DNA of 52,556 bases from a virus: IMG/VR virus record IMGVR_UViG_3300036829_000111, positions 1 through 52,556 of that record. One strand, 5' to 3'. Numbering within the stretch: the first letter of the stretch is position 1; every line of letters starts with the position of its first letter. The notes beneath the pieces were generated by a model that searched no databases, was not told the DNA's origin, and worked only from the letters and a program-made list of their open reading frames with translations. Positions 7,517 through 51,213 of this stretch are shown here, piece by piece. The position numbers were made by a program, and so were the translations under genes.

Positions 7517-7725
7517 GCCGCCACCTCCAGCGCGCCCGGCGGGTTCAGCGGCCAGTCCGCCGCCTCCGCGTCCCACCACGCAGGCCACGACGTCCCGCAC
7601 ACCTCATGCGTGTAGTCGGCACGCAGGGAGCCGTTGCCGTCCGGGGTGACCGTGGACGGGAGGACCGCGGGGAAGTCGCCGGGGTGGCACTCCGGGCAGG
7701 CGTCGGCGAGCGGCGAGCGGGTCAT
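7513..7725 (-). CDS. Small zinc-ribbon-like protein
   Basis: A 70-residue protein. ACPECHPGDFPAV near the N-terminus and HEVCGTSW about 30 residues later give the ligands of a small zinc site, and the C-terminus is Trp-rich (WPAWWDAEAADW). The start ATG at 7725 shares its last base with the DnaB stop (TGATG). It lies between helicase and methyltransferase; role unknown. Confidence 0.7.
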   Translation of the reverse strand: MTRSPLADACPECHPGDFPAVLPSTVTPDGNGSLRADYTHEVCGTSWPAWWDAEAADWPLNPPGALEVAA

Positions 7726-9086
7726 CACGCCGCCTCCTGGGGGAACTGCTGCTGTTCCTGCGCCGAGGGACGGTACATGTCGGCACACATCGCGAAATGT
7801 CCGCGGAACGCCAGCGTCGCAGTTCCGAGCGGTCCCTGCCGGTTCTTCGCCACGATCAGGTCGATCTCGCCAGCCCGGGCCGACTCCTGTTCATAGGCGT
7901 CCTGCCGGTACAGCAGGATCACGATGTCGCTGTCCTGCTCCACCGAACCCGAGTCACGCAGATCCGCGGGCAGCGGCCGGTGGTCCGTCCGCATCTCCGG
8001 GCCCCGGTTCAGCTGGCTGCCTACCAGGATCGGAACCTTGAACTCCTTCGCCAGCAGCTTCAGGCCACGCGAGAACTCCGAGATCTCCCGCTCCCTGCTC
8101 GCCGCCTTATCGGTGCCCTTGATGAGGCCGAGATAGTCGACGACCACCAGCTGCGCCGGGCTTCCCGCGCGGCGCATAGCCCGCAAATCCGACCGGATCG
8201 ACTGCACCGACATGTACGGGTCGTCGTTGATCAGCAGGTTCCCGCACCCCGTCAGGTGCGTGTGCGCCTTCGCGAGCCGCTCCCAGTCGCGCTCCTCAAG
8301 GCCGCCGTCCCGGATCCGCTTCAGCTCGACGCCGGCATGGAACGACAGGATCCGCTCGATGCACTCATCGGAGGACATCTCCATCGTGCACACGAGAACC
8401 GGCGCGCCCAGGTTGACGCCGGCGTGCACGGCGATGTTCAGCATGACCACGCTCTTGCCCATACCGGGGCGGCCGCCAACTGTGACCATCTGGCCGGGGC
8501 TGAAGCCCGGGACAAGCAGGTCGAGGTCCAGCCATCCGCTGGGGATGCCCTGCCGCCCTTCCGGGCCGCACTCGATGCGGTCGATTACCGGGCCGATCAG
8601 GTCGGCGATGCTCCGTGCGCCGGGCGGCAGCGCGGTGCCGGCTGCTTCGTCCAGCACCTTGTACGCCGCGTCGATGCGGTCGGCCAGGTCCGTGCTCCCG
8701 CCGAGAGCCGCGCTGCGGATGCTCGCTCCTGCCTCCGCGAGACGCCACCGGACGGCGCAGTCCCGCACCCGCTGCGCATACCAGGCGGCGCTCGCCGCGG
8801 ACGGGACTGCGGTTATCAAGGTGTGCAGGTACGGTGCACCGCCGGTCTTCGCGAGCGTGCGGCGTGTCTCCAGCTCGGCCTTGACGCGGATCGGGTCCGC
8901 ATGCTCCCCGCGGCCGGAAATCGCCGCGATCGCAGCGAAGATTTCCCCATGCGCGGGCCGCGCAAAGTCGCGGGCGTCCAAGATCTCCAGGCAGTCCGCG
9001 ACCGCAGCCTCCGACAGCATCATCGCGCCGAGCACCGCCTGCTCAGCCTGCAGGTCAGACGGGATCTCATTGTCGACGTCGTTCAC
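7725..9086 (-). CDS. dnaB: Replicative DNA helicase, DnaB family
   Basis: 453 residues, close to the usual DnaB length. The N-terminal helical domain begins PSDLQAEQAVLGAMML (about 9-24), Walker A GRPGMGKS is at about 205-212, and the family segment CTMEMSSDE follows. Walker B VVVDYLGLI is near 310, and GSQLNRGPEMR and NRQGPLGTATLAFRG are the C-terminal RecA-fold landmarks. It unwinds the replication fork as a hexamer. It sits in order initiator, DnaC-like loader, SF2 helicase, DnaB, each overlapping the next by 1-4 nt, so the element probably drives its own replication. Confidence 0.95.
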   Translation of the reverse strand: MNDVDNEIPSDLQAEQAVLGAMMLSEAAVADCLEILDARDFARPAHGEIFAAIAAISGRGEHADPIRVKAELETRRTLAKTGGAPYLHTLITAVPSAASAAWYAQRVRDCAVRWRLAEAGASIRSAALGGSTDLADRIDAAYKVLDEAAGTALPPGARSIADLIGPVIDRIECGPEGRQGIPSGWLDLDLLVPGFSPGQMVTVGGRPGMGKSVVMLNIAVHAGVNLGAPVLVCTMEMSSDECIERILSFHAGVELKRIRDGGLEERDWERLAKAHTHLTGCGNLLINDDPYMSVQSIRSDLRAMRRAGSPAQLVVVDYLGLIKGTDKAASREREISEFSRGLKLLAKEFKVPILVGSQLNRGPEMRTDHRPLPADLRDSGSVEQDSDIVILLYRQDAYEQESARAGEIDLIVAKNRQGPLGTATLAFRGHFAMCADMYRPSAQEQQQFPQEAA

Positions 9087-10732
9087 CGTGCCGCCTTCCG
9101 TATTTTCCGGATCGTCTTCGCCGCGTAGTGCGCGGTCATCAGGTCGGATGCCTCACCGCGGGACATCCCGGTCCTCACGGCGTGGCCCATGCGCCCGAGC
9201 GCGGACTTCTGCGCCTCGCTGGCAGGCCTGTCCCGCCATGCGGCCTTCGCCTGGGACAGGACGCCGCCGTTCGCGCGGGCGATCTCCTCGCCGACACCGC
9301 GTGCCCAGTCGAGGGCGAGCGGCTTCCCGGACTCCAGGCGGGGACTGCCGCCCTTCAGGCAGCGCCACACGTCCCACTCGTCCTCGCCGACACCCGGCCG
9401 GGAGGTGAGAATCATGACCTGATCGGCGCCCGCAGGAAGCACCCACGAGCCGTCCACGTCGATCCAGCGGAGCTCGCTGCGGCGCAGGAGCTCAATCTGC
9501 TTCGTCCGGGCCGCGGCAACCGCGATCTTGCGCTGCTCCGCCTCAGCCTGCTCCTCGGCCGCGTCCAGCAGGGACTTGCCGTTCTTCACGGACCCCGGGG
9601 GCATCCCGGCAAGATCGGCGATCGTGGCGAGACCGAGCTGCTCGGCGGAACCCGCGACGTCGAGGATCGGCGCGTCAGTCTTCGAGTAGGGCCTGCCGCC
9701 GACCTTTCCGATGAACGGCCGCAGCACGCGTCCCGCCATCTGGACGAAGAACGGGGCGGACTTCGTCGGGCGCAGCATCAGCGCGCACGACACGGCCGGC
9801 TCATCCCAGCCCTCAGTGAGCACCTGGGCGTTCGGCACGACGCGCGTCTCTCCGCGGTGCAGGCGGCCCAGGATCGCCCGGCGCTGCTCGAGCGGCATCT
9901 TCCCGTCCACGGCCTCCGCCGGGACGCCCTTGCGGGTGAGGGCCTCGGCGAGCGCGTGCGCGGTCGCGATCGTCGGGGTGAACGCCACCCCGATCCGGTC
10001 CTTCGCGTATTGCACGTACGCGTCCGCAGCGGCCTCGAGGGCGTCAGAGCGCTCCAGCTCGGCGGCGATCGACGAGTCCGTGTAGTCGCCGGCGCGGACC
10101 TGCGCGTTGGACAGGTTGAAATCGCCGCCGACCTGGATGGCCTTCACGTCGCACAGGTAGCCTTCGGCGATCATCTGGATGATGCCGCGCTGGTAGGCGA
10201 TCTCCTGCCAGACGTGGCCGAGCCCGATCTTGTCGCTGCGCCCGGCCGTGGCTGTGAATCCGACCGTGAGCGGGCCGTTGCCGGCCATGCTGCCGAGGCG
10301 CTCGAGGATGTCCAGGTAGATGTCGGCGACGGCGTGGTGGGCCTCATCGACGATGACCGTCGAGAACTTCCCGAGGCGCTCCAGCCGTCCCGGCCGGGCG
10401 AGCGTCTGCACCGAGGCGACGACGACCGGGGCACCGTAATCGTCCTGCTTGGCCTTGACGATCCCGATGTCCAGGTTCCCGCTGACGGCGGCCAGCTTCG
10501 CTGCAGCCTGCGAGATCAGCTCGTCCCGGTGGGCGAGGATCAGCGACCGGCCCGGGCGGCTGCTGACCAGGTGCGAGAACACCACGGTCTTGCCACCGCC
10601 TGTTGGCAGGACGACGAGCGGGCGCGTGATGCCCTTCGCATGAGCTGCGTTGACGGCGGCGATAGCCTGTGCCTGGTAGGGGCGGAGCGGCAGCGATGCG
10701 GACGCGGGCATCTCCAGTGCAAGCGCGTTCAC
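9083..10732 (-). CDS. Superfamily 2 DEAD/DEAH-type helicase
   Basis: 549 residues from GTG at 10732 (GTGA overlap). Walker A LPTGGGKT is at about 42-49, motif Ia-like LILAHRDEL follows, DEAH is in VIVDEAHH near 135, motif III TATAGRSDK follows, and motif VI QMAGRVLRP is near 345. This is the layout of RecG/RAD25-like and phage UvsW-type helicases. After the two RecA domains comes a long C-terminal region (about 400-549) with a helical Ala/Glu stretch and no clear domain. It probably remodels branched or stalled forks alongside the DnaB helicase. Confidence 0.9.
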   Translation of the reverse strand: MNALALEMPASASLPLRPYQAQAIAAVNAAHAKGITRPLVVLPTGGGKTVVFSHLVSSRPGRSLILAHRDELISQAAAKLAAVSGNLDIGIVKAKQDDYGAPVVVASVQTLARPGRLERLGKFSTVIVDEAHHAVADIYLDILERLGSMAGNGPLTVGFTATAGRSDKIGLGHVWQEIAYQRGIIQMIAEGYLCDVKAIQVGGDFNLSNAQVRAGDYTDSSIAAELERSDALEAAADAYVQYAKDRIGVAFTPTIATAHALAEALTRKGVPAEAVDGKMPLEQRRAILGRLHRGETRVVPNAQVLTEGWDEPAVSCALMLRPTKSAPFFVQMAGRVLRPFIGKVGGRPYSKTDAPILDVAGSAEQLGLATIADLAGMPPGSVKNGKSLLDAAEEQAEAEQRKIAVAAARTKQIELLRRSELRWIDVDGSWVLPAGADQVMILTSRPGVGEDEWDVWRCLKGGSPRLESGKPLALDWARGVGEEIARANGGVLSQAKAAWRDRPASEAQKSALGRMGHAVRTGMSRGEASDLMTAHYAAKTIRKIRKAAR

Positions 10733-11319
10733 TTCGCGGCCCTCCGCCTGTCCGCGCCGCGGAGCGGGATCAGCCGGCACATCTCGGCGAGCCGGGAGGC
10801 GACACGGTCTCCGATTACATCGCGCAGCTCGGCGGCCGGGATGTTGGACGTGAAGATCCCTGGCAGCATCGCCTCGTAACGGTGATTCACGAGCCGGTAG
10901 AGAATTTCCTCGGTCCACTCGGTGACCTTCGCGGCCCCAAGATCGTCCAGCAGCAGGAGGTCCGCGGCCGCGAGCCGCGCGAACTCGCCCTCGCTGTCGA
11001 CGCCTTCGCGGGGGCGCATCGATGCGTACATGTCGGGCGCGGTGGCCGCTTCCCAGTTCACGGTGATGCCGCGGGCGGCGAGCGAGCGGACGGCACCGAA
11101 CGCCTGGTGCGTCTTCCCGGATCCAGTGGGGCCGAGAATCAGCAGCGACGGCGACTCGGGAGAGAACCCCTGGCACCAGGCAGTGACATCGGAGTGGGTT
11201 GCGGTGGCATGCCGAAACCGGGGCGGGATGCGCCGGTCGGCGACTTCCGCCGCGCGGCGCAGGAAGCCCTCGCGGGTCGACACGTCGTAGAGCGGCGCGT
11301 CGTTCGGTGGTGCTGTCAT
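10729..11319 (-). CDS. DnaC/IstB-like AAA+ helicase loader
   Basis: 196 residues. Walker A LILGPTGSGKTHQAF is around 61-75, Walker B LLLLDDLGAAK around 118, sensor-1 FTSNIP follows, and an arginine-finger-like RVASRLAEMCR lies near the end, all typical of DnaC-type loaders. It would load the DnaB helicase at the origin. The start overlaps the stop of the initiator gene by one base (TGATG). Confidence 0.88.
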   Translation of the reverse strand: MTAPPNDAPLYDVSTREGFLRRAAEVADRRIPPRFRHATATHSDVTAWCQGFSPESPSLLILGPTGSGKTHQAFGAVRSLAARGITVNWEAATAPDMYASMRPREGVDSEGEFARLAAADLLLLDDLGAAKVTEWTEEILYRLVNHRYEAMLPGIFTSNIPAAELRDVIGDRVASRLAEMCRLIPLRGADRRRAAK

Positions 11320-12233
11320 CAGATCGGCTCCTCGTAGACCGAGTCATCGGAAGGGTTCTTGTAGGTCTTGTGGCCGCGCTGCGGCGACGCACGATTACCC
11401 CCGGCTTCCCGAGCGAGCCGGGCTCTGGCGTCGGCGGTGGCGGCGGCGTTGACGAAGCTGTCGAGCAGGGACACGTTCTTGTCGGCGATAAACCAATCGG
11501 CGAGGCCCTTCCGGATGTGCCGGTCAGGCGTGCCCTCGTTCAAGAGCGCACCGATCTGCTTGGCAAGCCGTCCTTTGGTCTGGCCGGTGAGTTCGCCGCC
11601 GTTGGCACGAACCCAGTCGATGAAGCTGCCAAGGATGGTCTGCGCGGTGGGCGCGTCAGCGCGCGCCGAATCTGAGGGTTGCTTTACTGAGGGTTCTATG
11701 AGGGGTAGCGGGCCTGTTTCCGCAGGTAGTGCGATCGAGTCCGCACCCTTTCGGCTTGATTCCGCACCCTTTTCCTTCGAATCCGCACCCTTTATCTCGG
11801 GTTGAGGGTGCGTTCTGGCCGCACCCTTTCCGCGCGCTTTAGGGTGCGTTCTGGCCGCACCCTTTCCCTGCTCCTCGCAGGGCTCCATCGCGTCAGATTC
11901 CCCGTCTTCGCAGTCCTCGAAAGGGTGCGCACAGTCCGCACCCTTTTCATCGTGGGCGAGAGGAAGAAGAACGAACCTTGCGCGACCGCCCCGGTTGCCT
12001 CCGCCATCCCGCTTCAGCACGCCCTCCGCGACCAGCTCGTCGGCGATGTGCGAGACGCGGGACGGCGACTTGCCCGTGCGATGCGAGAGCAGGCTGCGGC
12101 CCGGCCAGCCCGTGCGGGACCTGTCGTTGGCGTTCTCCGCCCAGGACAGGAGCCACAGCTTCCGGACATCAGGACCGTGGTAATGGTCGAGGATCTCGCG
12201 TACCAAGCGGATGCCCATAACCTCACCCGGCAT
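11319..12233 (-). CDS. Replication initiator-like protein carrying a repeat array in its gene
   Basis: 304 residues. The N-terminal region (about 1-90) holds a winged-helix pattern: LLSWAENANDRSRTGWPG, then SPSRVSHIADELVAEGVLKRDG. Residues 95-175 are low complexity with seven KGA repeats, encoded by the DNA repeats listed separately. The C-terminal part (about 195-275) is helical, like the helicase-loading half of phage O/DnaD-type initiators. Position directly before the DnaC-like gene supports initiation. The start at 12233 has an AAGGTG Shine-Dalgarno; an alternative is the ATG at 12218 (MGIRLVRE). Confidence 0.8.
   Translation of the reverse strand: MPGEVMGIRLVREILDHYHGPDVRKLWLLSWAENANDRSRTGWPGRSLLSHRTGKSPSRVSHIADELVAEGVLKRDGGGNRGGRARFVLLPLAHDEKGADCAHPFEDCEDGESDAMEPCEEQGKGAARTHPKARGKGAARTHPQPEIKGADSKEKGAESSRKGADSIALPAETGPLPLIEPSVKQPSDSARADAPTAQTILGSFIDWVRANGGELTGQTKGRLAKQIGALLNEGTPDRHIRKGLADWFIADKNVSLLDSFVNAAATADARARLAREAGGNRASPQRGHKTYKNPSDDSVYEEPI
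11742..11947. repeat. Iteron-like array inside the initiator gene; candidate replication origin
   Basis: Nine copies of CGCACCCT(TT) or its complement. Direct copies start at 11742, 11763 and 11784 (exact 21-bp period), then 11820, 11856 and 11937; inverted copies AGGGTGCG lie at 11805, 11841 and 11920. Copies at 11805/11820 and 11841/11856 form two inverted pairs with the same 7-nt spacer inside a 36-bp direct repeat. A third pair is 11920-11946. Phage lambda places its origin iterons inside gene O (established precedent). Use as the origin here is inference. Confidence 0.7.
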
Positions 12234-12404
12234 TGCCGGCCACCTTCCCGGTCATAGCCGCGGATCGCGGTCGCGCCCGCGGTCGCCCGGAGTCCGGTCG
12301 CAGGCTGATATGTGGTGCCGGGGACGATGGACAACGCCGCCGCCTTCCTGATCAGGGGGATTCGCGAGTTTTCAGATGAGTCGCGCAGCCGTTCGATTGC
12401 AAGC

Positions 12405-12510
12405 ATGCCACATACTACGTGGCATGGCAACTAGTCACGTGGCATAGTAGGTTGTTGCATGGCCTACATTTATGCCGCACACTAGGGGTAGGCCACACCC
12501 GTGTGACAAT
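12405..12510. promoter_or_regulatory. Operator array and divergent promoter region
   Basis: ATGCCAC (12405-12411) and GTGGCAT (12419-12425) form a perfect 7-bp dyad with a 7-nt spacer. GTGGCAT recurs at 12439-12445, and ATGCCGC is at 12472. On the plus strand, GACAAT (12505-12510) with an extended TGn lies 6 nt before the ATG at 12517. The replication operon starts to the left at 12233. The HTH gene at 12517 probably binds these sites and controls both directions. The leader between 12234 and 12404 shows no further clear feature. Confidence 0.6.
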
Positions 12511-12516
12511 GCGAGG

Positions 12517-12732
12517 ATGACTGACCCGATGGTTGCTGTTGTTGATGCGCGCAACGCGTACGTTGCCGCCCGTGAGCAGGTCAAGCTGACGCGGATCGCG
12601 CTCGGCAAGGCCATCGCCGAGGCGCGCGCCGCCGGAACTGACCAGGTCGACATCGCCAGGGAGCTGGATCTCACTAGGGAGCAGGTCCGGCGGTACCAGG
12701 TCGAGTACGAGGAAGACGCCGGCATCAAGTAG
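12517..12732 (+). CDS. Small helix-turn-helix protein, probable repressor
   Basis: 71 residues. A helical N-terminus (VVDARNAYVAAREQVKLTR) is followed by VDIARELDLTREQVRRYQVEY, a clear HTH of the sigma/TetR-like small type. It is the only plus-strand gene between two leftward operons. ATG at 12517 is immediately preceded by GCGAGG and, 6 nt away, by GACAAT, so it looks leaderless. Likely regulator of the replication operon through the ATGCCAC dyads beside it (inference). Confidence 0.75.
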   Translation: MTDPMVAVVDARNAYVAAREQVKLTRIALGKAIAEARAAGTDQVDIARELDLTREQVRRYQVEYEEDAGIK

Positions 12733-14590: not shown

Positions 14591-15243
14591 GCCGTCACCT
14601 CGCGGATGATGACCCGGAGCCGTCCCCGCGGGTAAGGCTGGTCGCCGATCTCACACCCGGCGTGGACCACGTAGCGGGCGTCATCGCCGGATCCGCGGCG
14701 CCCGGGAACGTGCCGGCCGATCTTGCCTGCCAGCGTTATGCCGTCGATTACCGGCTTCAGCGTCGGGCCGAGGTTGTCAGGATCGCGGTCCCGGCTCAGG
14801 TTCGGCGGGTCGTAGACGATAGTGACGGTGACGCGCTCCAGGTGCGGCGGCTTCGCCTTCAGGGTCATCGCCCAGGCGGCTTTCTTGATGGCCTCGGACC
14901 GGCGGTGGCGTTCCATGTGGTGGATCCGGTCGTTGAGGCTGAGGAGTTTCAGCCCGGCGGGCAGCTCGATCGTCCACTGTGGTGCGGCCAGGACGGCTGC
15001 GTCCGTGCGCTCCGCCGTCCCGGCCGTGTCTGCGGGGCTCCCGGCCCTCCTCCTGGCGCCGGGAGCCGGGCCGCTGCCTGCGCCGGTGGGGGCTAGCGCA
15101 GGCAGGGACGGTGAGGTGCTCCGGGCACCGTCAGGACGGGGGGCGACGGTGCCCGGAGCGGCGGCGCGAGTGTCCTCGAGCGCCGCGCTTCCCCGGCCGG
15201 CTGATGGCGGGCAGGCCGGGGAAGCTTCAGGGTTGCGGGTCAT
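14587..15243 (-). CDS. RusA-like Holliday junction resolvase
   Basis: 218 residues. The C-terminal 120 match RusA: LPAGLKLLSLNDRIHH, VTVTIVYDPPNLSRDRDP, then DPDNLGPTLKPVIDGITLAG, whose Asp residues bind the catalytic metal. RusA dimers cut four-way junctions made during recombination and replication. The first 85 residues are a Pro/Ala/Ser-rich extension not needed for the fold; a later start would remove it, but ATGA coupling with the upstream stop favours 15243. Fits the recombination module with the annealing protein. Confidence 0.85.
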   Translation of the reverse strand: MTRNPEASPACPPSAGRGSAALEDTRAAAPGTVAPRPDGARSTSPSLPALAPTGAGSGPAPGARRRAGSPADTAGTAERTDAAVLAAPQWTIELPAGLKLLSLNDRIHHMERHRRSEAIKKAAWAMTLKAKPPHLERVTVTIVYDPPNLSRDRDPDNLGPTLKPVIDGITLAGKIGRHVPGRRGSGDDARYVVHAGCEIGDQPYPRGRLRVIIREVTA

Positions 15244-16238
15244 GCCGTCGCCACCTCGGCGGCACGCGCGAACTGCCTAACGCGCAGGTCTTCCGGCCAT
15301 GCGTCCCAGTCGCCGCCCTTCGGCCCCGCGCCGAGCTCGCGGCCGAGCATGGAGCCGAGCTGCTTCACAAACACCGGCACACCGGAGTCCTGACACTGCT
15401 CGACAAGGAGGCGCGCCCAGCCCTCAGCCATGCGGCGAGCACCGGGGCCGCTCTCTCCGCCGACAATCACCCAGTCGATAGCCGGGCCGACGGTGAGTTC
15501 CTGAGTGACAAGCCCGCTCGGCTCGCGGTGCTCTGGTCCCCACCCCGGACGCCCGTCCAGCCAGTAGGTCAGGCGCGGCCGGTGCCCGTTCACGACCGGT
15601 CCGTGGAGGTCGATCGGTCCCAGCAGCGGCTCCGCGCTGATGAACCGGATCGCGGCCGGCGTTTCGAGCAGCGCCGGGATGCGGATGTCCGCCCAGTGCT
15701 GGTCTTCGGTGCTGACGCCGAGCCAGACGTTCGGCAGCGGCGGCACTATTTCGGGCCAGCGGCCAGTGCCGTAAATCCATCGCCGCACTTCCACGAACCG
15801 TTCGGCGGGAATCGGCAGGTCAATGCCAACGGCCCAGTCGGCAGCCTCATAGAGAAGCTCGCGCCACTTATCTTTGGAGGACAGCAGCGACCGCATGCGC
15901 GCGTGCCGCTTGGTCAGCACCTGATAGGTGTGGTGCGGCGTCAATGCCATCACGGCAAATACGCGGGCGATGTACTCGTCGGGAACGTCCTTATGGAACA
16001 GGTCGCTCATCGAATTTACGAAGACTCTCCTCGGCCGCTTCCAGCGCAGCGGCTGGTCCAGCTTGTCCGGCCGCAGCTGCACGTCGAAGCCGTGCTCGAA
16101 GTAGTGGCCGGGCGTCCCGCGCCAGCGCTCGGCGAACGTGGAGGCATAGCAGCGGTCGCATCCGGGCGAGATCTTCTCGCAGCCGGTGACAGGGTTCCAC
16201 GTCGCGTCGGTCCACTCGATCTTGCTGTCGTCGCTCAT
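15240..16238 (-). CDS. Phage Gp37/Gp68 family protein (DUF5131)
   Basis: 332 residues. The hallmark is near the start: IEWTDATWNPVTGC, then KISPGCDRCYAS, giving a cysteine trio of radical-SAM-like spacing. VFVNSMSDLFHKDVP, FAVMALTPHHTYQVLTKR, WLGVSTEDQ, FISAEPLLGPIDL and DWVIVGGESGPGAR follow in the usual order, and the length agrees. The family is widespread in phages; its activity is not established, though an iron-sulfur enzyme is plausible. Start overlaps the upstream stop by one base. Confidence 0.9.
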   Translation of the reverse strand: MSDDSKIEWTDATWNPVTGCEKISPGCDRCYASTFAERWRGTPGHYFEHGFDVQLRPDKLDQPLRWKRPRRVFVNSMSDLFHKDVPDEYIARVFAVMALTPHHTYQVLTKRHARMRSLLSSKDKWRELLYEAADWAVGIDLPIPAERFVEVRRWIYGTGRWPEIVPPLPNVWLGVSTEDQHWADIRIPALLETPAAIRFISAEPLLGPIDLHGPVVNGHRPRLTYWLDGRPGWGPEHREPSGLVTQELTVGPAIDWVIVGGESGPGARRMAEGWARLLVEQCQDSGVPVFVKQLGSMLGRELGAGPKGGDWDAWPEDLRVRQFARAAEVATA

Positions 16239-16519
16239 CACAGAACCCCGTTCGCCAGGTCGTCTTCGATGGCCGCTTCGATCCCGGCGATCTCCGGGTC
16301 GTCGGGCAGGTAGTAGGTGCGCGCGGTGGCGCAGAATGCGATCAGTTCCTCGGCGGTGAGCACCGCGCCCTCGCACTTCACCGGGCCGCGCATTTTCTTC
16401 CGCTTCGTGCCGGGCAACAGCGGCTTGCCGTGCGCCCAGCACGCCTCGACATGGCACACCAGGGCGACGAGGCCGACAGCCCCGAACCCGATGGCGAAGC
16501 CGACTATGAGCGGCCACAT
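16238..16519 (-). CDS. Hypothetical protein with N-terminal membrane helix
   Basis: 93 residues. MWPLIVGFAIGFGAVGLVAL is a hydrophobic span directly at the N-terminus, followed by a basic patch (GTKRKKMRG) and an acidic helical C-terminus with LTAEELIAFCATART. The topology suggests a cytoplasmic domain tethered to the membrane. Unknown function; one-base overlaps with both neighbours. Confidence 0.7.
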   Translation of the reverse strand: MWPLIVGFAIGFGAVGLVALVCHVEACWAHGKPLLPGTKRKKMRGPVKCEGAVLTAEELIAFCATARTYYLPDDPEIAGIEAAIEDDLANGVL

Positions 16520-16809
16520 CAGCCCTCACCGCCCTGCAGCGCGTCGAGCCGTGCCCGCTCGTACCTGCCGGCGGCCGCCGGGCCGACCCCGACCTCGGCC
16601 GCCGCCTCGGCGACGCTCCGGCCGGCGTTGCGCAGCTGGCAGAACCGCTCGTACCGGGCGGCCTTCTCTGCGGACGCGGCCCGGGCGGCACCGGAGGGCG
16701 CCCTCACGACGTCCTCATCCGTCTTGGTGCCGCGATACACGTACCGCGTGCCGGCCGGTATCCCGTTGGGGGACGAGCCGAGGCTGGCCGCCCGGATCCG
16801 CGCGGTCAC
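16519..16809 (-). CDS. Small HTH-containing protein
   Basis: 96 residues. After a variable N-terminal half with a GTRYVYRGTK strand, AARYERFCQLRNAGRSVAEAA and VGVGPAAAGRYERARL form an HTH of the homeodomain-like resolvase/transposase type. Probably DNA binding. It overlaps the HNH gene upstream in ATGA. Confidence 0.7.
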   Translation of the reverse strand: MTARIRAASLGSSPNGIPAGTRYVYRGTKTDEDVVRAPSGAARAASAEKAARYERFCQLRNAGRSVAEAAAEVGVGPAAAGRYERARLDALQGGEG

Positions 16810-34335: not shown

Positions 34336-35241
34336 ATGTCAACCACTTCGCAGGACAGGATCCCAGAGCTGCGGGTGCGCCCCGGGGTCAGCAAGGCGGT
34401 CGTCTGGTCCGGGGTCGCGCTCGGCACGACCCTGGCGATCCTGGCCATGATGCACGGGGCGCGGCTGCACCTCGGCGGAATGCCCGCCCTCCCCGGCGCC
34501 GTCTTCGGCGTGCTTGTCGAGTGGGCGCTGTTCGTGGCCACGGCGATCCTGGCGGCCGAGATGACCCGCCGCCATCACAAGACGGCGGCCCGGTACGCGG
34601 CACAGCAGGGGAGCCGCGGCGCGTCCGCCGGAGGCCAGGCCCTCCGCAGGCACGCGCTCATGTTCCTCGACAAGTCAGCCGACTGGGCCGCCCCGCGGTG
34701 GCATGCCCGGACAGGCAGCACCCGCACGCCGGATGAGATCACGCAGCCGATTCCCTCGGCAGCACCCGCAAGCCCCTCCGCAGACAGCGCGGAGGTCAAT
34801 CCAACCGAAGGAGAAAACATGACGACACCGACACGCGGCCTTGTCAGCCGCATCAGCCCTGACCGGCGGGCGCAGCGCACCGCATCCCGCAGCGGCGCCG
34901 TCATCCCGGCGGAGTGGGGCCATGTGGTCACGCAGACCGCCGACTTCGACCCCGAAGACGACGGGCACCTGCTCGACTGGATGGGCGGGCAGGTCGCCGG
35001 CGTAGCCGCCTACGGGGAGGCGCTCGTCGAGGTGTACGAGGGCCTCACCCGCGACAAGGGGGCCGACCCCAAGGCCGCCGCCGCGATCCACGATGTCGCC
35101 GACGCCATCGCCCACGCCGCGGAGATGATGGCCGCCGCCAAGGCGAAGTTCTCCGAGCACTACGAACTGCCTCGCGAGTACGCCGCCAACGGCGGGCTCA
35201 TGACCCACGACGGCCGGTGGGTCACCGGCGAAGGCGACTAG
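34336..35241 (+). CDS. Membrane protein fused in frame to a soluble THDGR-type protein
   Basis: 301 residues. AVVWSGVALGTTLAILAMM (about 22-40) and FGVLVEWALFVATAILAAEM (about 57-76) are two spans, with a charged linker to about 160. The second half, helical and acidic, ends GGLMTHDGRWVTGEGD. A strong GAAGGAG and ATG occur in frame at 34807-34821, so this second half can be made separately. The C-terminal motif is shared with the 38473 protein. Likely a transfer-module component. Confidence 0.75.
   Translation: MSTTSQDRIPELRVRPGVSKAVVWSGVALGTTLAILAMMHGARLHLGGMPALPGAVFGVLVEWALFVATAILAAEMTRRHHKTAARYAAQQGSRGASAGGQALRRHALMFLDKSADWAAPRWHARTGSTRTPDEITQPIPSAAPASPSADSAEVNPTEGENMTTPTRGLVSRISPDRRAQRTASRSGAVIPAEWGHVVTQTADFDPEDDGHLLDWMGGQVAGVAAYGEALVEVYEGLTRDKGADPKAAAAIHDVADAIAHAAEMMAAAKAKFSEHYELPREYAANGGLMTHDGRWVTGEGD
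34819..35241 (+). CDS. Nested product of the 34336 gene (internal start)
   Basis: The 140-residue C-terminal half could be made from ATG at 34819, which has GAAGGAG 5 nt upstream. It starts MTTPTRGLVSRISPDRRAQR, contains AAAIHDVADAIAHAAEMMAA and ends THDGRWVTGEGD. Homologous ending to the first domain of the 38473 protein, which there begins at its own ATG, supports an independent protein. Confidence 0.55.
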   Translation: MTTPTRGLVSRISPDRRAQRTASRSGAVIPAEWGHVVTQTADFDPEDDGHLLDWMGGQVAGVAAYGEALVEVYEGLTRDKGADPKAAAAIHDVADAIAHAAEMMAAAKAKFSEHYELPREYAANGGLMTHDGRWVTGEGD

Positions 35242-35315
35242 CCCTCACCTACCGTTCCCGCCGCCGGGCACGCGCCCGGCGGCGGGGACCTGACCAGAAG
35301 CAGGAAGGAAGTTCA

Positions 35316-37616
35316 GTGGCCATACAGGCGCCGGAGCGATGGGCACCGGAGCGGCCGTGCCAGATCCCCGGGCACCCCCACGACGACGTCGGAGATGACG
35401 AGCGTCTGCTGCTCACCATGTCGCCGTGGCAGAGGTTCCGGTCATGGATCATGGCCGCGCCCGCTGAGCGGCTGCCCCTGCCCGCGTTCGTGACTGCGTG
35501 GCCCGCCACGGAGATCATGCACGCAGCCGGCGTCCCCGGCACGGTCCCCGCCTGCGCGACATGCGCCGCTACCGCCGCAGCGTGGCTGACCTGGTTCCGG
35601 CACCGGAAGGCATCCCCGCACCCGCGGCTCGCCCCCCTCGAGGCCGCAGGCGTCGCCGCCGCTGCCGGCGGATGGATCACCGCCGCCGACATGTGGGGCC
35701 CGCTCGGCTGGCCCGCCCACCTGCTCACCGGGATCTACCTTGCCGGGTCCGCCGGCGGGTACGCGTGGCTGCGCCGCCATGAGGCTGTCCTCGCCGCCCG
35801 CAAGCGCCGTGAAGACGCCGCTGCCGAGATCGCCGACAGGCGCCACTGGCATGGGGTGCTCCACCGGGCCGGCCTTGGCGGCTGGCACGTGCAGTGGCGC
35901 CGCGACACCAACCTCGGCGAGGAGCGGCTGATCACCACCAGCCCGGAGAACGCGTCCGCCAAGCAGATCGCCGCGAACAGCAGCAGGATCGCGGAGAAGC
36001 TCGAGCACATCCTCGGCCTGCCCTACAACCGGATCGACATCAGCACGACCGGCCAGCCGGGCCAGCTGATCATCGGTATCCGCACCGTGGACGTTTCGTC
36101 GCGGAGCGCCGCCTACCACCCGATGACGATGCCGTGGCCCGAGAGCAGCCCGTCCCCGTTCGCGGACTGGTTCCCGGAGACCGCCAGTATCCGCGACCCG
36201 GCCGTGTGGGGATTCTGCCCCGAGGACAGTTCCCCCCTGGCCGCCCAGCTGCTGAGCGACATCGGCGGCCGGGCCATCGGCGTGTTCGGCATGACCGGCT
36301 CCGGCAAGTCGTCCCTGCTGAACAACCTCCGCGAGTTCGTCACCCGATGCCCCGACGCCCGCATGGTGCAGCTGAACGGCGCGCACATGGGCGACGAGTT
36401 GTCCTGGGAGCCGCTGTCCGCGCTGACGCGATGCGGCCCGGTCGCCACCAACGAGAACGTCCGCAACGACATCGCCGAGATCCTGGAAGCGCTGCGCCTG
36501 CTCGTCACGAACCGGTCAGAGACCCTCGAGAAGACCGGGCATTCCACGTTCCAGCCCACGGAGAAAGATCCGGCCGTCGTCATCTTCATCGACGAGGTCG
36601 ACGAGATCGTCAAGTACGTCCCCGGGGCCGGAGATGCGCTGGATTTCCTCGCCGGCAAGCAGCGGAAATCGGCGGTTGCCCTGGTTCTCGCGACTCAGCG
36701 TGCCGTGATCAAGGCGATCGGCGGCGGTGCCGTGCGGGCGAACCTGAGCGAGGCCCTCGTCGGCAAGGTCGCTCGCGGCTCTGAATCCCGCCACGCGACC
36801 GGGGCGGAGAGCGAGCTGCCGGACATCCGCGAGTACAGCGGCGGGGCGCCCGGCTATTTCCAGACGTTTGACCCGCACTCAAACACCGTCACCGGACGGG
36901 GCCGGGCGTTCCTCCTCGGCGTGCCACCCGAGGAACTGGCCTACGTCAAGCGCCTCGTCGCGGCCCGCAGGCACCTGCGGGACTGGGGCATCCCCGACAT
37001 GCCGGAGATGGACCTGGACGGCGGCGAGGCGGTTGCTGAAGCCGCCGCGGGCGAGACGACGCGGGAAGTCGCCGGCCTGCGCGAACGGCTCGCCGCCGCC
37101 CGCGACAACGCCGCGGCACAGCCCGCGCCTGCAGCGGCCGCCAAGACGCAGCCGCCCGCGCAGGCTCCGACCTTCATCCCGGGGGTTCCGCAGCCTGTCG
37201 TACAGATGATGCTTCGGATGCTCGCCGCCCCGGACGGGGTGACCGCGGCGGCCTTCGGCGATGCCATCGGCAAGTCGAAGACCACGGCGTACGGGTACCT
37301 GAAATCAGCGGAAGACCGCGGAGTCGCCGTTCGCGACGGCAACTCGGTAGCGAGTCGTTACCGGCTCGCGACCCGTCGGCAGCCGGAATCCGTCCGGGAT
37401 CAGTCCGAGACGATGGAACCGGCCCAGACCCGGCCCGAGGGATACGTGACGCTGGAAGACCTCGCCGAAGAGGTACGCGACGGCCGGGTGGATGTCGATG
37501 ACGAGGCCCGCGCCGTATTGATGCAGGCGCTTCAACTCCGCGACCAGGCACCCGCGCGCCCGCATCTGACGGTCGTGCCGGACCCGGACCCGGAACCGGA
37601 AAGTGACGCACTGTGA
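35316..37616 (+). CDS. FtsK/TraB-type DNA translocase of the transfer module
   Basis: 766 residues from GTG at 35316 (AAGGAAG upstream). Hydrophobic segments lie near 55-150 (AAGVAAAAGGWITAADMW, LLTGIYLAGSAGGYAWL). Walker A GVFGMTGSGKSSLLNNL is at about 322-338, Walker B AVVIFIDEVDEIV near 418-430, followed by ALVLATQRAVIKAI. The C-terminus (about 625-690) is a winged helix: MMLRMLAAPDGVTAAAFGDA, IGKSKTTAYGYLKSAEDRG. Actinomycete TraB proteins share this plan and move double-stranded DNA between cells after binding a clt site (established knowledge). Assignment to conjugation rests on this and on context. Confidence 0.85.
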   Translation: MAIQAPERWAPERPCQIPGHPHDDVGDDERLLLTMSPWQRFRSWIMAAPAERLPLPAFVTAWPATEIMHAAGVPGTVPACATCAATAAAWLTWFRHRKASPHPRLAPLEAAGVAAAAGGWITAADMWGPLGWPAHLLTGIYLAGSAGGYAWLRRHEAVLAARKRREDAAAEIADRRHWHGVLHRAGLGGWHVQWRRDTNLGEERLITTSPENASAKQIAANSSRIAEKLEHILGLPYNRIDISTTGQPGQLIIGIRTVDVSSRSAAYHPMTMPWPESSPSPFADWFPETASIRDPAVWGFCPEDSSPLAAQLLSDIGGRAIGVFGMTGSGKSSLLNNLREFVTRCPDARMVQLNGAHMGDELSWEPLSALTRCGPVATNENVRNDIAEILEALRLLVTNRSETLEKTGHSTFQPTEKDPAVVIFIDEVDEIVKYVPGAGDALDFLAGKQRKSAVALVLATQRAVIKAIGGGAVRANLSEALVGKVARGSESRHATGAESELPDIREYSGGAPGYFQTFDPHSNTVTGRGRAFLLGVPPEELAYVKRLVAARRHLRDWGIPDMPEMDLDGGEAVAEAAAGETTREVAGLRERLAAARDNAAAQPAPAAAAKTQPPAQAPTFIPGVPQPVVQMMLRMLAAPDGVTAAAFGDAIGKSKTTAYGYLKSAEDRGVAVRDGNSVASRYRLATRRQPESVRDQSETMEPAQTRPEGYVTLEDLAEEVRDGRVDVDDEARAVLMQALQLRDQAPARPHLTVVPDPDPEPESDAL

Positions 37617-48078: not shown

Positions 48079-51000
48079 ATGAGCGATGAGGGCCGGGTGC
48101 GGCGCGCGCTGGCCGGGGACACGTCCCTGCTGGCGATGCGGGCATTCCCGCTGCGGGACATCGAGATCCTGTCGCGGGCCAAGGGCGGCGACGGCCGGAC
48201 GGTCACCGCGTACGCCGCCGTGTTCAACAAGCCGACGGAGATCGTCGACCAGGACGGGCACTACAACGAGCAGATCGCCCCGGTCGCGTTCAACAAGAGC
48301 CTCGCGGACCGGTCCCGGAAGATCGGCGTCTACTACAACCACGGCAAGACGCTGCACGGCACGCCGTCCGAGCGCGGTTCGGTGCCGCTCGGCAGCCCGC
48401 TGGAGCCGCCGCGGCCGGACGGAAACGGGCTGCTGACCGTCTCCCGGTACAACCGGACGCAGCTTGCCGACGACGTGCTCGAGGCGATCAAGAACGGTGA
48501 CATCACCGGCCAGAGCTTCACCGGCGTGTTCCTGCATTCCGACCCCGACAACGGCCCGTACTACGGCCGGAGCGGGCAGCTCACCACGGTGACGCGCCGG
48601 GAGATCGCCTTGGTCGAGTACGGCCCCACGCCTATCCCGGCCTACGAGGCCGCCGAGATCGTGGGGGTCCGCAACAGGGAGGGACGAATGTCCGGCGACC
48701 ACGATCACACTCACGACCGGGCGTCGGGCCCGGAACCGTACGAGCGGCATCCGGGCGAGGACGTGCAGTGCCCGGCGTGCGGCAAGTTCAACGACGACGA
48801 CGCGGTCTACTGCGACCAGTGCGGGAAGAAGATCCCGGACTCGGCGTTCCCGGCCGGCCCGCAGCCCTACCACCGGGACGCGGGCGAGACGGTGCAGTGC
48901 CCGAACTGCATGAAGTTCGACATGCCGGATGCCCGGTTCTGCGACCAGTGCGGGGAGCAGCTGCCGGACTCGGCGTATAACTCCGGCGGTGCCGCGGCGC
49001 CCGGGAACGCGGACCGGGCGGCGGCCCGCGCTCCCGGTGACGCCGGCGACGGCGAGGCGGCGGCCCCCGAGGATGAGCGCACCCGGGCGAACACGATGCT
49101 GTGCGAGCACTTCGGCTGGGAGCCGGGAGGCGCCGACGCGCTGGGCGACTCCGAGCGGAGCCTGCTGCTGGCCAGCATCAGCGAAGCCCACGGCGGCGGC
49201 GAGCACGAGCGCGCCAGCGTGGACGACAGCGCCTGGGACGGCAACGCCGCGATGGGCACGTGCAGCAGCGCCTCGGACTACCGGGCGATCTGCGCCGGGG
49301 AGAAGACCATCGGCGACCCGTCGGAGCGGCAGCACTGGGCACTCCCGCACCACAAGCAGCCCGGTGCGGCGCCGAACGCGGGCGGGGTCCGCAACAGCCT
49401 GTCACGGCTGCCGCAGACCCAGGACCTGAAGAACAAGAGCGCCGCCGAGGCGCACCTGCGGGCCCACATGCGGGCCATCGCCCCGGACTCCGGAGATTCC
49501 GGGTCCTCGAATTCTTCCGGCAGGTCAGAGCCTGCCGGGCCAGCCGCCGTCAACGGCACTGGAGCCGGCACGGGAACACCGCTCCCGCCGCCAGCCGAGC
49601 CGCCCACGCACTCGGTAAACCGCAGCACATCCAACGCAAGCACAGGAGAAGGAACGATGACCGAACAGGCCATGACGGTCGAGGAGCGGGCGGCTCGCCA
49701 GGACGAGATCCGGGCGCGGCTCGCCGAGATCGACAGCCAGTACACCGGCGCGGCGCTGCCCGAGAAGGCCCGCTCCGAGTGGAAGCAGCTGCAGGACGAG
49801 CTCGTGATCAACGAGGACGCGATCCGCGACGCCACCGAGCGCGCTACCTACCTGCGCACGATCGCCGCGCAGAACCCGGAGGCGACCGTGCAGGGTGCCG
49901 ACCCGGGCTCCGGCTACGCGGACGCGCAGGAGGCGCAGCGGTCCGGTGCCGTGCCGCAGCAGTCCCGCAGCGGCACCCCGCGGGCAATGTACGGGGCGCC
50001 GTACCTCTCCCGCCGGCCGCACAACATCTACGATGTCGCCGGCATGCGGCGCGAGGCCCGCAGCATCGAGGACCTGCCCGGCCTGTACCGGGACCGGGCG
50101 AAGTGGTCGCTGGAGGAGGCGACGTTCCCCGGCGACGGAAGGCCCCGCGAGGTCGTACAGGAGCGCGTCCAGCACCTGCTCGACACGCGGGATGACGTGA
50201 ACGGCACCCTCGCCCGCAACATGCTGTTGACTGGCAGCCCCGAGTACCGGCGGGCGTTCGGCAAGCTGCTGGCGCGGATGAACGTCGGCGCACTGGACCA
50301 GGCCGAGCAGCGGGCCCTCGCGATGGGCACCCCGGCATCGTGGCAGCCCGGCTCCTTCCCGGTGCCCTACCAGCTCGACCCCACGGTCACGCTGACCAGC
50401 AACGGCGCGATCAACGCGCTGCGGCAGATCGCCCGGGTCGAGCAGATCGTCGGCAAGGAATGGCTGGGTGTCACCAGCTCGGGGATCACGGTCACCCGCG
50501 CCAACGAGGTCACCGCGGCCACCGACGCCACCGCGTCGCCGTTCGCCATGAACCAGCCCGGCGTCGCCCCGACCCGCGTCCAGGCATTCGTGCCGTTCTC
50601 GGTCGAGGTCGAGCAGGACTGGAACGGCCTCATGGCCGAAATCGCCATGATGCTCGCCGACGCCAAGGACGTGGAAGAGGCGGCGACATTCCTCACCGGC
50701 GCGGGCACCGGGAACATCCCGCAGGGCGTCCTCACCGGCGTCACCGCCGGGGGCACCGCCCAGCAGATCACGACCGCAGGCACCGCGGCCGTGTCGCCCG
50801 GCGACGTGTACGCCCTGGAATCCGCCATGGCCCCCAGGTTCCGCGCCCAGGCGTCGCTCCTGGCCAGCAAGGGCGGATACAACGCGATCCGCGCCACGTT
50901 CCAGGCCTTCGCCTCGGCCGCCGGGGACGTGTGGGTCCGCCCCTCCGCCGGCACCGCGCCGGAACTCCTCGGCTACCCGGCCTACGAGAACAGCAACATG

Positions 51001-51213
51001 GCGTCCACGACAGCGACCGGAAACCAGGTCCTGCTAATGGGCGACTTCAAGCAGTTCATTGTGGTCGACCGGATTGGCATGTCCGTCGAGTTGATTCCCC
51101 ATGTGTTCGCTTCTGGCGGTCTCCCGCAGGGCCAGCGCGGGATTTACGCACTTTGGCGCAACTCCAGCCAGGTGCTCGTCCCCAACGCGTTCCGTTTCCT
51201 GCAGGCGCGATAA
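48079..51213 (+). CDS. Prohead protease / zinc ribbon / major capsid fusion protein
   Basis: 1044 residues. (1) Prohead protease, about 20-195: TVTAYAAVFNKP, IGVYYNHG (His), ITGQSFTGVF (Ser). (2) Two zinc ribbons: VQCPACGKF...YCDQCGKKI (about 228-253) and VQCPNCMKF...FCDQCGEQL (about 271-295). (3) A conserved domain, DDSAWDGNAAMGTC, DYRAICAG, WALPHHKQPGAAPNAGGVRN (about 347-465), seen with phage proteases. (4) Linker. (5) HK97 major capsid from residue 527 with a delta-type coiled N-terminus. Single-chain protease-capsid fusions are known, but a zinc-ribbon pair within is unusual. Confidence 0.88.
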   Translation: MSDEGRVRRALAGDTSLLAMRAFPLRDIEILSRAKGGDGRTVTAYAAVFNKPTEIVDQDGHYNEQIAPVAFNKSLADRSRKIGVYYNHGKTLHGTPSERGSVPLGSPLEPPRPDGNGLLTVSRYNRTQLADDVLEAIKNGDITGQSFTGVFLHSDPDNGPYYGRSGQLTTVTRREIALVEYGPTPIPAYEAAEIVGVRNREGRMSGDHDHTHDRASGPEPYERHPGEDVQCPACGKFNDDDAVYCDQCGKKIPDSAFPAGPQPYHRDAGETVQCPNCMKFDMPDARFCDQCGEQLPDSAYNSGGAAAPGNADRAAARAPGDAGDGEAAAPEDERTRANTMLCEHFGWEPGGADALGDSERSLLLASISEAHGGGEHERASVDDSAWDGNAAMGTCSSASDYRAICAGEKTIGDPSERQHWALPHHKQPGAAPNAGGVRNSLSRLPQTQDLKNKSAAEAHLRAHMRAIAPDSGDSGSSNSSGRSEPAGPAAVNGTGAGTGTPLPPPAEPPTHSVNRSTSNASTGEGTMTEQAMTVEERAARQDEIRARLAEIDSQYTGAALPEKARSEWKQLQDELVINEDAIRDATERATYLRTIAAQNPEATVQGADPGSGYADAQEAQRSGAVPQQSRSGTPRAMYGAPYLSRRPHNIYDVAGMRREARSIEDLPGLYRDRAKWSLEEATFPGDGRPREVVQERVQHLLDTRDDVNGTLARNMLLTGSPEYRRAFGKLLARMNVGALDQAEQRALAMGTPASWQPGSFPVPYQLDPTVTLTSNGAINALRQIARVEQIVGKEWLGVTSSGITVTRANEVTAATDATASPFAMNQPGVAPTRVQAFVPFSVEVEQDWNGLMAEIAMMLADAKDVEEAATFLTGAGTGNIPQGVLTGVTAGGTAQQITTAGTAAVSPGDVYALESAMAPRFRAQASLLASKGGYNAIRATFQAFASAAGDVWVRPSAGTAPELLGYPAYENSNMASTTATGNQVLLMGDFKQFIVVDRIGMSVELIPHVFASGGLPQGQRGIYALWRNSSQVLVPNAFRFLQAR
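49657..51213 (+). CDS. Major capsid protein from internal start
   Basis: ATG at 49657 with AGGAGAAGGA upstream gives the 518-residue MTEQAMTVEERAARQDEIRA... protein: an N-terminal coiled delta domain (about 1-100), then the capsid fold with GSFPVPYQLDPTVTLTS, IVGKEWLGVTSSGITVTRAN and YAYENSN-type loops to the end. This start would give capsid in excess of the fusion, as head assembly needs. Confidence 0.65.
   Translation: MTEQAMTVEERAARQDEIRARLAEIDSQYTGAALPEKARSEWKQLQDELVINEDAIRDATERATYLRTIAAQNPEATVQGADPGSGYADAQEAQRSGAVPQQSRSGTPRAMYGAPYLSRRPHNIYDVAGMRREARSIEDLPGLYRDRAKWSLEEATFPGDGRPREVVQERVQHLLDTRDDVNGTLARNMLLTGSPEYRRAFGKLLARMNVGALDQAEQRALAMGTPASWQPGSFPVPYQLDPTVTLTSNGAINALRQIARVEQIVGKEWLGVTSSGITVTRANEVTAATDATASPFAMNQPGVAPTRVQAFVPFSVEVEQDWNGLMAEIAMMLADAKDVEEAATFLTGAGTGNIPQGVLTGVTAGGTAQQITTAGTAAVSPGDVYALESAMAPRFRAQASLLASKGGYNAIRATFQAFASAAGDVWVRPSAGTAPELLGYPAYENSNMASTTATGNQVLLMGDFKQFIVVDRIGMSVELIPHVFASGGLPQGQRGIYALWRNSSQVLVPNAFRFLQAR

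Follow-up and report, generated by a model that had tools for sequence, protein, structure and literature searches.

A candidate replication origin of the lambda O type inside the initiator gene of a probable actinophage

The replication origin of phage lambda lies inside its own initiator gene, O, where the iterons (four, at about codons 117–144 according to the annotation of the lambda record) sit in mid-gene between the N-terminal DNA-binding and the C-terminal parts, with an AT-richer region beside them and the loader gene P next. The lambda iterons are 18 bp long and each internally symmetric, and P is not DnaC-like. Winged-helix initiators are also known from Firmicutes phages (SPP1 G38P, TP901-1), whose DnaD-like replisome organizers have, in some cases, origin sites inside the initiator gene, while the iteron plasmids (Rep_3 and similar) carry in-phase direct and inverted repeats beside an AT-rich element. 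Variation in the number of iterons has been described in the Stx phages, which have six and whose O is 13 residues longer on account of the additional ones (PMC7466680). In extrachromosomal mycobacterial prophages of the RepA type, the origin is suspected, as in lambda, to lie inside repA or immediately upstream of it, and no repeated motifs were found in the region examined, from the tail genes to parS-L (Wetzel et al., 2020; PMC7157519).

The locus described here belongs to the IMG/VR virus record IMGVR_UViG_3300036829_000111, all 52,556 bp of which were analysed and are referred to as the window (G+C 65–74%; no tRNAs found). Phage records with a match to its terminase number 1,987 (best identity 39%), and since almost all of these have actinobacterial hosts, the source virus is probably an actinophage. 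As in lambda, the iterons sit centrally in the initiator gene, flanked by the DNA-binding and C-terminal parts, an AT-richer region lies beside them and a loader gene comes next; the variable length of the array among relatives recalls the extra iterons of the Stx phages. Unlike the symmetric lambda iteron, the unit is asymmetric here and is arranged as three direct copies of 21 bp accompanied by inverted pairs, and the loader, in contrast to P, is DnaC-like. The likeness to the DnaD-like organizers resides in the winged helix, whereas the iterons differ and the window protein has no sequence match to the Pfam DnaD domain. In iteron plasmids the array lies upstream of rep, whereas here it lies inside the initiator gene, in whose product no plasmid Rep domain of Pfam was found. 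The RepA-type prophages share the actinophage setting, but here there is a clear array, and it is constrained. Lambda O already exemplifies the principle; what is new is the lineage, the unusual direct-plus-dyad layout and a natural switch of specificity.

The initiator gene, its relatives and the array

The initiator is the first gene of the following run:

11319..12218, minus strand: initiator gene (PHROG O-like matches, AlphaFold2, homologues)
10729..11319, minus strand: DnaC-like helicase loader whose gene overlaps the stop codon of the initiator (PHROG 50, E=5e-35; Pfam IstB_IS21, E=2e-12)
9083..10732, minus strand: DEAD/ResIII-type DNA helicase
7725..9086, minus strand: DnaB-like replicative helicase (Pfam DnaB_C, E=2e-78)

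On the other side of the gene, in the gap before a divergent small HTH gene (12472–12732), a candidate operator lies at window positions 12405–12450, where ATGCCAC occurs inverted at 12405 and ACGTGGCAT occurs at 12417 and again 20 bp on, at 12437. Elsewhere in the window, a 1044-aa frame (48079–51213) matches a head maturation protease (27–199) and a major head protein (533–1042) and is apparently a fused protease-capsid gene, the frame at 15240–16691 strongly matches the phage family phrog_2045, whose function is unknown (E=1e-104), and a 900-aa frame (34914–37616) weakly matches an FtsK/SpoIIIE-like phage family.

The initiator has 299 aa counted from the conserved ATG at 12218 (304 aa from an upstream ATG at 12233), and its predicted layout, according to the AlphaFold2 model, is an N-terminal winged helix (helices and wing, 5–89), a disordered linker (low confidence, 94–166) and a helical C-terminal domain (helices, 197–277). 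The PHROG O-like replication initiation families phrog_391 and phrog_8540 match 10 of 10 members, and phrog_391 is matched by lambda O itself. The Pfam lambda-O model Phage_rep_O (PF04492), to which lambda O as control matches at 6e-36, is matched neither by the window protein nor by three homologues, and direct profile comparison of the initiator with lambda O is weak (E=0.07). Foldseek matches the initiator to the N-terminal winged helix of DnaD (probability 1.0, but E about 0.1), the N-domain fold being all that resembles DnaD, and also to viral HTH and phage replication proteins; sequence searches of PDB and NCBIfam returned nothing useful.

The gene is present in about eleven other IMG/VR contigs (L002, L004, L006, L007, L009, L010 with its near-copy L012, L021, L026 and L027; L008 and L046 are partial), recovered by a DNA pattern scan together with an alignment-based scan; only about 10 homologues are independent. 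Single-sequence protein searches recovered no relatives, a protein scan of bacterial genomes revealed no homologue of the initiator, and matches to the iteron pattern in bacterial genomes were rejected as chance or simple repeats. Most relatives are 56–62% identical to the window protein (L027, whose C-terminus differs from that of the other members, 45%), and between members the winged-helix part is 70–93% identical and the C-terminal part 49–70%.

In the DNA encoding the linker between the winged helix and the C-terminal domain, nine exact CGCACCCT motifs are found within 203 bp (11742–11944), with successive spacings of 21, 21, 21, 15, 21, 15, 66 and 15; the remainder of the 52.6-kb window contains 1 additional motif, and the whole array is present once in the genome. 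Dinucleotide shuffles of the whole window contain 3.6 motifs on average, and synonymous recoding of the initiator gene yields a mean of 0.3 and a maximum of 4 (2000 trials) against the 9 observed, so that the protein sequence alone is insufficient to account for the array. Its elements and those beside it are the following:

11742+, 11763+, 11784+, 11805-, 11820+, 11841-, 11856+, 11922-, 11937+: starts and strands of the CGCACCCT motifs
11741-11751, 11762-11772, 11783-11793 (span 11741..11793), minus strand: direct iterons (core), AAAGGGTGCGGA on the coding strand, in exact 21-bp phase
11805..11829, no strand: dyad 1, an inverted iteron pair with 15 bp between motif starts
11841..11865, no strand: dyad 2, identical to dyad 1 (25 bp), 36 bp further
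11922..11946, no strand: dyad 3, 84% identical, the 5'-most element of the array as the gene is read
11713..11726, minus strand: linker CCTGCGGAAACAGG, a short imperfect inverted repeat between the iterons and the CCCTCA block
11673..11708, minus strand: putative unwinding element CTACCCCTCA-ACCCTCA-AACCCTCA (three CCCTCA repeats, codon-invariance, fixed spacing)

The exact motif positions bear out the first-pass annotation, which had described nine repeats, three of them in exact 21-bp phase, and two 36-bp repeats each holding an inverted pair; its statement that the repeats encode KGA within a disordered linker agrees with the translation and with the low-confidence part of the model. The iteron unit AAAGGGTGCGG is asymmetric, and symmetry exists only between adjacent inverted units. 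In 10/10 homologues the array starts at gene base 276–277, immediately past the winged-helix segment, and ends with the triple of direct iterons at the identical 21-bp spacing; the inverted pairs between the start and this core vary in number, position and state.

The CCCTCA block, which adjoins the direct iterons and was absent from the earlier description, begins (at CTACCCCTCA) at a fixed distance from them in 10/10 homologues, exactly 42 bp (2 x 21) counted from where the last one starts. Its AT content in the window is about 47%, against 35% for the initiator gene, and in all 10 homologues the 45-bp block has an AT fraction of 0.47–0.51 against 0.31–0.37 for the gene. The softest 60-bp stretch of the window gene starts at gene base 491 and overlaps the block, as it does in 7 of 10 homologues, lying elsewhere in 3. 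The block is soft for this genome, and its AT content is moderate, not extreme. The CCTGCGGAAACAGG linker is nearly invariant in 9/10 homologues and lost in L027; a hairpin at this site was rejected, the predicted folding not being significant. The GC-skew check that had been suggested for the origin was uninformative, the cumulative curve having no turning point at the array.

Constraint on the DNA and the two iteron classes

The homologues fall into two classes according to the iteron. In class I (seven genomes) the array copies read GGGTGCG in 59/59 cases, and in class II (three genomes: L021, L026 and L027) they read GGGTTCG in 23/23. Within class I, degenerate codons whose amino acid is invariant are also invariant as codons in 18 of 19 cases in the array and in 12 of 12 in the neighbouring block (11670–11740), compared with 21 of 79 in the rest of the gene (Fisher p=3e-12, array and block together versus the rest). 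Even codons with a varying amino acid keep a third-position A in the CCCTCA block (e.g., GTA/CAA/GAA), and the iteron copies use throughout Gly GGT and Pro CCT, codons that are rare in neighbouring genes (11/106 and 2/62, respectively). L026 and L027 preserve the iterons of one dyad although the reading frame there is shifted, and conservation of the peptide is therefore not the explanation. It had been anticipated that the DNA sequence, rather than the protein, is what is kept, and that KGA repeats conserved with freely varying synonymous codons would speak against an origin; the frozen synonymous sites are the opposite of that outcome.

The change between classes is matched in the protein. 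Five positions of the N-terminal domain (47, 58, 62, 65 and 89) separate the classes perfectly, including, from class I to class II, S to V or A at 58, H to N at 62 and L to M at 89; among the 120 possible three-sequence groupings, the next best separates one position only. AlphaFold2 predicts, at modest confidence (pLDDT about 60–70), a recognition helix that contains or adjoins residues 58 and 62, and places residue 89 in the wing strand. Outside the array, GGGT[GT]CG in the DWVR codons is independent of class, which indicates that the switch is confined to the array. Such a matched switch is as expected if the initiator binds its own iterons, and is the best evidence of this obtainable without bench work.

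The winged-helix tree unites class II (support 83/91), which suggests that the switch could be a single event, whereas in the C-terminal tree L021 groups with the window and L004 (90/96), apart from L026. This disagreement implies either that the switch occurred once and the cassette recombined onto different C-termini, or that it occurred twice; winged helix and array travel together under either history.

Origin function and the alternatives

Taken together, the array, its conservation at the DNA level, its fixed geometry and the matched change of iteron and winged helix lead us to consider that the array is the replication origin of the phage, of the lambda O type and within its own initiator gene, with a probability of roughly 85%. 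The candidate origin proposed in the first-pass annotation is thus supported at the sequence level by the DNA constraint and the concerted change. Iterons followed by an unwinding element are, by analogy, the layout of a theta-type origin, and from it we infer how binding, melting, loading and the dyads would come into play. The winged-helix domain would bind the AAAGGGTGCGG iterons, three of which, at 21 bp or two turns, would share one helix face; these direct iterons end two periods before the AT-richer CCCTCA block, which would be melted upon initiator assembly, and the C-terminal domain and the loader encoded next would bring DnaB to the opened strands. The upstream inverted pairs probably tune initiator loading or give the gene self-regulation.

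The main rival is an intragenic operator, in which the repeats inside its gene would serve the initiator as binding sites for regulating transcription of the replication operon, the origin being elsewhere. The DNA constraint and the matched switch would fit it equally, and the dyads look like operator sites, but the array is located about 270 bp into the gene and not at a promoter, a scan limited to the sigma-70 type detected no promoter-like site in 11600–12700, and the conserved AT-richer CCCTCA block at its fixed 42 bp is left unexplained. We regard an operator in place of an origin as unlikely, although the two roles may coexist. Control at the level of RNA, with the inverted pairs folding in the initiator mRNA to govern translation or transcript ends, draws on the two 36-bp units, which form single-strand stem-loops (z=-3.3, DNA parameters) whose pairing is preserved through the class switch. 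This is very improbable, given that the switch also took in the three direct copies, which lack an inverted partner in place and are conserved better than any other part, that the number and position of dyads differ among relatives and that no terminator-like site was found. Least probable of all, and barely tenable, is that KGA/THP repeats are kept for linker function and that conservation of the DNA is a by-product: K-G-[AS] does recur, and within each orientation most copies share a frame, but synonymous sites are frozen, the rare GGT and CCT codons are used throughout, copies are frame-shifted in L026 and L027, and the linker is predicted to be disordered.

Combination with different partners and implications

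The order initiator, loader, helicases, previously taken as that of an origin-proximal replication operon, stands in the window, but the partner after the initiator is not constant among relatives. Judged by eye from the sequences, one type of DnaC-like loader is common to the window and L046, and another to L002, L006, L009 and L021; in L004, L007, L010 and L026 a different small protein follows the initiator, in L027 another again, and no loader is recognisable. This gene order suggests that the initiator and the array inside it form one module, to which different loading partners have been joined. A more tentative proposal, to which we give somewhat less than even odds, is that the array and the winged helix form a self-contained, exchangeable specificity cassette with at least two specificities (GGGTGCG and GGGTTCG), that a few residues set them, including S58/H62 versus A-or-V58/N62, that it is joined to different C-terminal and loader partners, and that the direct core plus dyad array is an origin layout of its own kind, in which control is a separate part.

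Repeats of the GGGTT(CGG) type, often 10–11 or 22 bp apart, were also observed in mid-gene in unrelated initiators, from actinophages or DnaD-like (L038, L039, L040, L041, L044, L045, L048, L049 and L051), where they may mark further hidden origins, and GGGTT-type repeats occur inside the initiator genes of L038–L045 and of the Gordonia phages Walrus, Fireball and Twister6. As a recurrent feature of unrelated phage initiators, GGGTT-type iterons are a suggestive lead that is not established: codon-permutation tests were mostly not significant, and of only two matches to a scrambled control pattern, one likewise hit a gene resembling an initiator.

Few actinophage origins seem to have been mapped, and the array provides a precise candidate origin in an uncultured phage family, while frozen synonymous sites in initiator genes offer a way to find further origins. 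With an origin inside the coding sequence of its own initiator, a new specificity would require about eight sites to change at once, and the two iteron classes with their matched helix changes would constitute a natural experiment on the joint change of initiator and origin specificity.
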